In this document: positions 45,015 to 46,094 of the stretch, piece by piece
Position numbering within the stretch: position 1 is the first letter of the stretch
Layout: every line of letters starts with the position of its first letter
Source: Limnothrix sp. CACIAM 69d
Lineage (GTDB): Bacteria > Cyanobacteriota > Cyanobacteriia > CACIAM-69d
Assembly (NCBI GenBank): GCA_001913845.2
Contig: MKGP02000082.1
Span: 1 to 64,000, forward strand
DNA: 64,000 bases
Direction of reading: 5' to 3'
The notes under the pieces: model-generated
Databases searched by the model: none
Seen by the model: the letters and a program-made list of their open reading frames with translations, nothing else
Told to the model about the DNA's origin: nothing
Program-made: the position numbers and the translations under genes

Positions 45015-45491
45015 ATGCCTCGTCATCTGCCTGCGAAAGCGGATTCCGATCTGATTGATTTAACACCTGAAGAGGCAATCATTGCGATCGGGTTAATCAC
45101 CATGATCGTTGATGAGTCCGTTGAAGACATCGAGGCCGAATTGCTGGCCGATGTTGCAGCGGAATTTGAACTATTTGAAGACTATTCCGATGACGAACTC
45201 GTCGAGATAGTCGATAAAGTGGTTGCAGCCTCGGAAGCCTCCGATGCGCAGACCCTCCTGGGCAGTGCCTTGGCAGTGGTCACCCAAAATGAAGATTTGG
45301 CAGAAATTGCCCTAATCACCGCCATTCTGATCGTGGCCGCCGATGGCGAAGTCCCCGAATCAGAAGAAGACTACTTGAACGAGTTGCAAACGGCGCTGGG
45401 CGTTTCTGACGATCGCGCCAATGAAATTGTCGAGGCCCTCTTCAGCGATGAAGAGGACTTTGAGGAAGACGAGGAGGAAGAAGAAGCCTAG
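45015..45491 (+). CDS. TerB-like helical protein
   Basis: A 158-residue, strongly acidic protein. Two similar helical halves (LTPEEAIIAIGLITMIVDESVEDIEAELL and DLAEIALITAILIVAADGEVPESEEDYL) carry the TerB-type pattern: a helix with a D-x-(E/S) metal-like site after a hydrophobic helix. The tail is almost entirely Glu/Asp (EEDFEEDEEEEEA). TerB-like proteins occur in stress and tellurite-resistance operons, but as a lone gene its function is unknown. Start ATG at 45015. Its TAG stop (45489-45491) is part of the terminal repeat of a 150-bp inverted-repeat element, so the last codons may have changed when the element arrived. Confidence 0.75.
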   Translation: MPRHLPAKADSDLIDLTPEEAIIAIGLITMIVDESVEDIEAELLADVAAEFELFEDYSDDELVEIVDKVVAASEASDAQTLLGSALAVVTQNEDLAEIALITAILIVAADGEVPESEEDYLNELQTALGVSDDRANEIVEALFSDEEDFEEDEEEEEA

Positions 45492-45636
45492 AGCTTGTCG
45501 TCGAATCGCCTGAAACCCTGATTCCACCGTTGGCAGATCGTGGGGGACAAGGGGCTTAAGCCCCTTGTTACAACGGCTGGGACATGGAAAATCGATCATT
45601 TCCGCCTGATCCTAGGAAATGGCGACAGACCCTAGG
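45487..45636. repeat. 150-bp inverted-repeat element, family 2, copy A
   Basis: Ends CCTAGAGCTTGTCGTC and (as reverse complement) CCTAGGGTCTGTCGCC are imperfect inverted repeats. The centre is the palindrome CAAGGGGCTTAAGCCCCTTG (45548-45567) preceded by GATCGTGGGGGA. It shares both flanks with 62541-62673 and, in the opposite orientation, with 59893-60043 and 60038-60187. It overlaps the stop codon of the TerB-like gene. Confidence 0.9.
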
Positions 45637-45732: not shown

Positions 45733-45782
45733 GCGATTTAGATGAAGGCAAAATTGACACCAGTTGTCTGAATTTTGGAAAA

Positions 45783-46094
45783 CCTGCCGGGCTGAAGGGG
45801 TTGCCCCGAGGGCGGTTCAGGGAATTTTAAAGAAAAGTTGAGGAACTTCCCCAGTGACCCCACTTCATGGAAAACTGGTTTCCAGATAAAAAGGGGTCAC
45901 CCAAATAAAGGCCCTTGTTCATTCAACCCGTGGGGATTTTGCCCCGTTAGGTACTAGCTCAATGGGGTCTAGCTCGTACTGTTTAAAGACCCTTCACCAA
46001 TAGACTTCGCTCTCGGGCAAGCAGGGAATTATTCATATAATCCCGCCCTAGATTTGAACAGGAGCGCTGCCCGTATGGGTGGCGCTCTTGTTTT
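45783..46094 (+). ncRNA. Candidate structured non-coding RNA with terminator
   Basis: No credible reading frame exists between the terminator at 45732 and the helicase gene, but the plus strand is strongly structured. (1) A long-range closing helix pairs TTGCCCCGAGGGCG (45801-45814) with CGCTCTCGGGCAA (46008-46020, one bulge). It is extended by CCTGC (45783-45787) with GCAGG (46021-46025). (2) GTGACCCC (45854-45861) pairs with GGGGTCAC (45893-45900), enclosing TGGAAA/TTTCCA. (3) GGGG/CCCC pairs at 45932-45945. (4) An alternative local hairpin CTGAAGGGG..CCCC..TTCAG (45792-45820) would compete with helix 1. An intrinsic terminator GAGCGC..GCGCTC then TTGTTTT ends at 46094. TTGACA lies at 45754 but no good -10 was found. 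It matches no RNA I can recall (not tmRNA, RNase P, SRP or evident 6S). Ends are approximate. Confidence 0.45.
46062..46094 (+). terminator. Intrinsic terminator of the candidate RNA
   Basis: Stem GAGCGC (46062-46067) with inner CCC/GGG and GCGCTC (46082-46087), then TTGTTTT. The T-run exists only on the plus strand, so it serves a plus-strand transcript and not the minus-strand helicase gene that ends at 46122. No plus-strand protein gene ends here. Confidence 0.75.

Follow-up and report, generated by a model that had tools for sequence, protein, structure and literature searches.

A conserved hairpin RNA family of cyanobacteria with a predicted small-RNA gene in Limnothrix sp. CACIAM 69d

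Introduction

To our knowledge, few small RNAs are conserved across the cyanobacteria, and the usual list consists of Yfr1, Yfr2, 6S RNA, PsrR1, IsaR1 and NsiR4. PsrR1 (SyR1) is a high-light sRNA regulated by RpaB. It shares with the predicted RNAs described here a free-standing gene in cyanobacteria, an operator made of tandem repeats and a terminator of its own. IsaR1, which is under the control of Fur, and NsiR4 are conserved trans-acting sRNAs of cyanobacteria, and the family appears to be of similar build. Yfr1 and Yfr2, again like the family, are spread across the cyanobacteria and carry a short conserved motif; Yfr2 is multicopy, with the loop sequence GGAAACA. Protein-titrating sRNAs of the CsrB/RsmZ type resemble the family in layout only, by repeating a hairpin with a similar loop motif. 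Their loop is GGA, whereas the family has AGC..AUAAA in one or two copies only, which is a likeness and not membership. In a published study (PMC4734099), NsiR4 is placed under NtcA control and the motif of Yfr1 is given as CACUCCUCACACC.

The DNA analysed here, referred to as the window, is a stretch of 64,000 nucleotides from Limnothrix sp. CACIAM 69d. An earlier note had proposed a structured plus-strand RNA gene flanked by a TerB-like gene and a SNF2 helicase gene. The gene itself, its end near 46094 and the lack of an Rfam match are upheld by the present analysis, while its extent and fold are revised. The spot looks like a real small-RNA gene, shorter and folded otherwise than first drawn. 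The predicted RNA is one copy of a cyanobacteria-wide hairpin RNA family and not an isolated oddity.

Conservation and structure of the locus

The segment 45789-46049 differs from the sister genome (G002) at 5 of 261 sites, compared with 116 of 923 fourfold sites in the neighbouring genes (p ~1e-8); the flank 45735-45788 has 11 differences in 54 sites. As judged from this comparison, the segment is under selective constraint against G002, and it is this conservation that exceeds chance. In the third genome of the genus (G001), a syntenic but divergent relative was reached by nhmmer on the flank of the orthologue of the convergent SNF2 gene (L116:3335-3605, E=4.7e-13). Synteny was followed from SNF2 instead of TerB because a sigma factor gene follows the TerB homologue in G001. 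The G001 region folds with z=-3.76 and has the hairpins H1 and H2 in its centroid. The window RNA, folded from its predicted start, gives z=-3.65 and forms H1, the middle hairpin, H2 and the terminator (Table 1).

Table 1. Predicted features of the small-RNA locus, in window coordinates
Feature	Position	Strand	Basis or remark
Operator-like tandem repeat, 11-bp period (TTTTAAAGAAAAGTTGAGGAA)	45825..45845	+	52 nt before H1
Extended -10 element TGGAAAACT	45868..45876	+	Aligned with family TGnCAyaCT; ends 16 nt before H1
Predicted small RNA, ~212 nt	45883..46094	+	Start placed from -10 spacing, +/- ~3 nt
Hairpin H1: GGGGUC / ACCCAAAUAAA / GGCCCU plus one outer A-U pair	45892..45916	+	Compensatory changes at 5/6 modelled pairs, 89 distinct sequences
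Middle hairpin GGGG-AUUUUG-CCCC	45932..45945	+	Fold from predicted start; GGGGCUUUUACCC version in G001
Hairpin H2, second copy of H1 stem: GGGGUC / 18-nt loop ending UUUAAA / GACCCU	45964..45993	+	Comparison with G001 and G002; tandem forms
AT-rich hairpin GGGA(A)UUAU..AUAAUCCC	46024..46044	+	Fold from predicted start; retained in G002 despite one-base insertion
Terminator-like hairpin, 16 bp (46057-46092), CTCTTGTTTT / U-rich 3' side	46057..46094	+	Strong hairpin also there in G001 and G002

The repeat upstream of the RNA is likely the site of an OmpR/PhoB-type regulator. The -10 element of the window is a weak match to the consensus, and a generic sigma-70 scan found no promoter here and did not list 45868-45876. 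In the H1 loop (ACCCAAAUAAA), AUAAA is present and the usual AGC is replaced by ACC; the H2 loop has AGC and UUUAAA and is longer. One H1 pair has become C-A in G002. The H2 stem reads GGGGUC/GACCCU in the window, GGGAUC/GAUCCU in G001, which is a compensatory change, and GGGGUU/GACCCU in G002. The sole change of the 46057-46094 hairpin in G002 falls in the tetraloop, and G001 has a different strong hairpin at this place. A simple terminator scan does not list the 46057-46092 hairpin because its T run is interrupted.

The molecule first drawn in the earlier note was an RNA of ~310 nt starting at 45783, closed by a 13-bp long-range helix with a 5-bp extension and switching with a local hairpin at 45792-45820. 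Its helices can form. TTGCCC(C)GAGGGCG at 45801-45814 is pairable with CGCTCTCGGGCAA at 46008-46020 with one bulge, CCTGC at 45783-45787 is pairable with GCAGG near 46021-46025, and the local hairpin can also be made. The further stem-loops and the terminator-like hairpin are present in the window sequence, and 45798-45825 is identical in G002. However, the closed domain of ~240 bases folds no better than shuffled DNA when the terminator is left out (45789-46026, z=-0.2). The value for the whole 318 nt (z=-3.3) comes mainly from the terminator, and the sub-stretches 45783-46050 and 45801-46022 give z=-1.2 and z=-2.2. The extension is broken in G002, where CCTGC is changed to TTCGC and GCAGG is unchanged. 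In G001, several blocks from TAAAGAAAA onward are conserved, but the 5' strand of the 13-bp helix is not. The 5' segment of this fold also lies upstream of the family-conserved promoter described below. By homology, 45825-45876 is a promoter. The long-range helix of 13 bp and its 5-bp extension, the GTGACCCC/GGGGTCAC hairpin and the supposedly competing 45792-45820 hairpin therefore all draw on DNA before the predicted start. The closing helix joins promoter-upstream DNA to the RNA and is thus, on present evidence, outside the transcript. We regard the long-range fold as very unlikely.

The locus could also be read as a small protein gene, a 39-codon ORF at 45838-45957 with a TTG start. G001 contains a similar in-frame ORF (MRKSG..SWKT..), and SWKT and NP(W/F)G are common to both. 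In the comparison with G002, however, the ORF shows 0 synonymous changes and two replacements, and its stop codon is lost. Its conserved letters are explained by the -10 element and a hairpin that covaries by pairs, and no such frame was seen by eye in other family members. A protein gene is therefore hardly credible here.

A hairpin RNA family in cyanobacteria

When 390 cyanobacterial genomes were searched by blastn, G002 alone was matched convincingly; divergent copies needed synteny and nhmmer, followed by a small covariance model. With a three-sequence profile the short hairpin was recognised in unrelated cyanobacteria, two of the copies lying upstream of proB. The covariance model R1 describes the H1 hairpin and was built from six sequences, the window copy among them. 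At E<=0.05 per genome, R1 had matches in 179 of the 390 genomes, against some 20 that chance alone would give, and in 112 of 160 genera. Its best matches have E values of 1e-8 to 1e-6 per genome. A loosened motif, run against 257 Gb of named genomes of bacteria and archaea, found at least 116 stretches. Among the 80 matches listed, all carry cyanobacterial titles except one metagenome-assembled genome named Gracilibacteria bacterium. In this assembly (L260, JAAUUT010000238.1) the family motif lies on a short contig, which is probably misbinned cyanobacterial DNA. In phage and plasmid collections no relatives turned up, only a short match between a Vibrio plasmid and the terminator hairpin. Exact-pattern searches found none in viral contigs and, with a 20-mer of the long-helix strand, none in genomes. 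At the locus, no Rfam model scored above its gathering threshold, and relaxing the limit to E=10 added nothing but noise. In Rfam 15, the window and 22 further loci, most of them with members, gave no family at the gathering threshold, only tRNAs. The family is missing from Rfam.

The window H1 is among 101 aligned members. Their 89 distinct H1 sequences have 99.6% of cells paired and changes on both sides at five of the six pairs, counts that are somewhat biased because the R1 selection includes the H1 pairs. The covariation score of H1 is 0.332, against 0.177 for shuffled alignments; 0 of 500 shuffles scored as high, and slid versions scored far lower. A seventh pair, below the H1 stem, also covaries. 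In most members the loop consensus is A-G-C...A-U-A-A-A, which stays similar while the stem changes by compensation.

The aligned members share the order AT-rich repeat, extended -10, H1, AUAAAUCCCUGUGAAUAC in many members, and terminator-like stem. The search model held H1 only, with the promoter elements and the terminator-like stem outside it, and the placement of the promoter elements is thus free of the selection bias. A loose pattern for the operator consensus AAATATAAAGAAAAyATTAnGAAA matched 125 of 166 members, in almost every case 48-54 nt before H1. The extended -10 pattern TGnCAyaCT was matched in 79 members and ends mostly 14-16 nt before H1. The spacings in the window, 52 and 16 nt, fit the family modes of 50 and 15. 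Terminator-like stems of at least 8 bp occur in 112 of 164 members, against 49 after shuffling. A tandem second hairpin was detected by pattern in 30 of 166 members and in 0 shuffles. Three loci carry extra copies of the hairpin upstream of the main one, at ~50 nt in L221 and L234 and at ~60 nt in L225; the module is therefore duplicated outside the H1-H2 layout as well.

This arrangement also bears on a reading from the minus strand, in which the constraint would come from the 3' UTR and terminator of SNF2. The 46057-46092 hairpin is close behind the SNF2 stop codon, where it could serve as the SNF2 terminator. Folding was also obtained on the minus strand, with z=-2.7 for the full stretch and z=-0.7 for 45789-46026. 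Outside the genus, however, the family shows no tie to SNF2, and operator, -10, hairpin and terminator are ordered on the plus strand. A minus-strand origin of the constraint is highly improbable.

Two recurrent loci of the family

The members recur at two loci, locus A (yqeG-[RNA]-proB) and locus B (DUF3493 (LPA1/REP27)-[RNA]). Among the 166 members, 79 neighbour yqeG and/or proB, 54 neighbour DUF3493, 2 neighbour both and 1 has only an FAD oxidoreductase gene; the 30 unclassified members include some short or distantly framed loci. The name YqeG is assigned from HAD-phosphatase Pfam matches, and ProB is named from its AA_kinase and PUA domains. Tandem forms, of which 29 were tested, belong mainly to the DUF3493 locus (22), with 1 at yqeG-proB and 6 unclassified. 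By the synteny of its G001 orthologue, the window copy is the locus B (DUF3493/LPA1-linked) paralogue. This orthologue adjoins DUF3493; in the window a TerB-like gene replaces DUF3493, with a repeat of ~145 bp between. The yqeG-proB copy of the same genome is on another contig (G000:C21:46566-46597).

In members at locus A, proB follows the RNA with the same orientation, as would be expected of a cis-acting leader, an attenuator or riboswitch of the downstream gene. At locus B, however, members differ in their downstream gene, which is often encoded on the opposite strand, the next gene in the window is the convergent SNF2, and the members carry their own terminator-like stem. A leader function is accordingly very improbable.

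Comparison with described RNAs

The earlier note could match the locus neither to RNase P RNA nor to 6S RNA or tmRNA, and the present analysis agrees. The first two are encoded elsewhere in the same genome and the locus has no RF00013 or RF00010 match; ARAGORN and Rfam found no tmRNA in the window.

Yfr2 differs from the family, in which its GGAAACA loop was not seen, and there was no Rfam match. Yfr1 was rejected, CACUCCUCACACC being absent from the window RNA and from the members read. For PsrR1, we take G035 to be S. elongatus and collinear with UTEX 2973, from its gene content. Identity with PsrR1, which the promoter repeat had suggested, is rejected on position as well as sequence. By transfer of the psaA and PsrR1 coordinates (PMC6091082), PsrR1 is expected near position 1,063,750 of G035; the family member is at 1,845,691, directly downstream of yqeG, and there is no sequence match. 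At the predicted place of PsrR1 there is an HLR1-like repeat, and after it a stretch of the size of an RNA that ends in a terminator. The PsrR1 promoter has the HLR1-like GTTACAAAAGTTTACA, whereas the family promoter has the 11-bp-period AAAGAAAA/TTAnGAAA repeat. The comparison with NsiR4 and IsaR1 was one of promoter sites, and the expected NtcA and Fur sites were at background. The NtcA site GTA-N8-TAC occurs upstream of 2 of 166 members and the looser GT-N10-AC is about as frequent as in shuffles; the best upstream match to the 19-nt Fur consensus is no better than in shuffled sequence.

Searches of the main texts of papers, for the motif letters and for a name of the family, found nothing relevant. 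Published transcript lists may already contain the family without naming it; for Nostoc, predicted sRNAs have been listed in large numbers (PMC4734099).

Proposed function

We propose, with good though not full confidence, that the locus is a free-standing sRNA gene, a locus B member of the cyanobacteria-wide family, with a promoter driven by an OmpR/PhoB-type regulator and a trans-acting RNA that carries H1 and H2. The family, the H1 structure, the promoter spacing and the synteny can be read from the sequence itself. From these we infer that the window RNA is transcribed, its start site, its regulator and its function as a trans-acting regulator. Transcription would be driven by the extended -10 element together with the tandem-repeat operator upstream of it, to which an OmpR/PhoB-type response regulator probably binds, and would yield an RNA of ~212 nt from ~45883 to the terminator at ~46094. 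The RNA would present two copies of the hairpin, with a compensated stem and a similar loop. Action in trans seems most likely, with the exposed loops binding a common partner. This partner could be target mRNAs, recognised through short stretches of base pairing, or an RNA-binding protein titrated by the RNA; with a second hairpin, more binding sites would be on offer. The compensated stem and similar loop, the phylum-wide promoter spacing, the terminator-like stems, the varying or convergent downstream genes and the doubling point to a trans-acting RNA.

A wider proposal, which we make tentatively, is that of an undescribed cyanobacteria-wide regulatory RNA family with two ancestral loci (yqeG-proB and DUF3493/LPA1), expressed through a response regulator, the loop module of which was duplicated, giving two sites, at the locus linked to photosystem II assembly. 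It would possibly act as a titrator of an RNA-binding protein or as a global regulator of photosynthesis and stress genes.

What appeared to be a lone oddity is thus presented as a conserved, probably regulatory RNA, for which a target search is now possible. A family that occurs in nearly half of the sampled genomes, its promoter site clearly marked and its stem compensated, but without an Rfam entry, would lend itself to study. In Nostoc or S. elongatus, direct tests could address what regulates it, what it targets and why the hairpin was doubled.

Further observations around the locus

The TAG triplets at 45955, 45970 and 46049-46051 are all changed in G002, where one frame is open through the RNA. 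This open frame is probably a coincidence, because other members have no such frame. The segment 45640-45734, which separates the repeat from the sRNA promoter, holds the strong terminator of the TerB-like gene (GCCTGC..GCAGGC-TTTTT). It too shows unusual conservation, with 3 changes in 95 against G002. The ~145-bp interspersed repeat itself occupies 45490-45635 and has a GGGGCTTAAGCCCC palindrome core. About a dozen copies with 89-92% identity are found in the same genome, and more in G002 and G001. The repeat is absent at the same site in G002, and a recent insertion or loss is therefore indicated.
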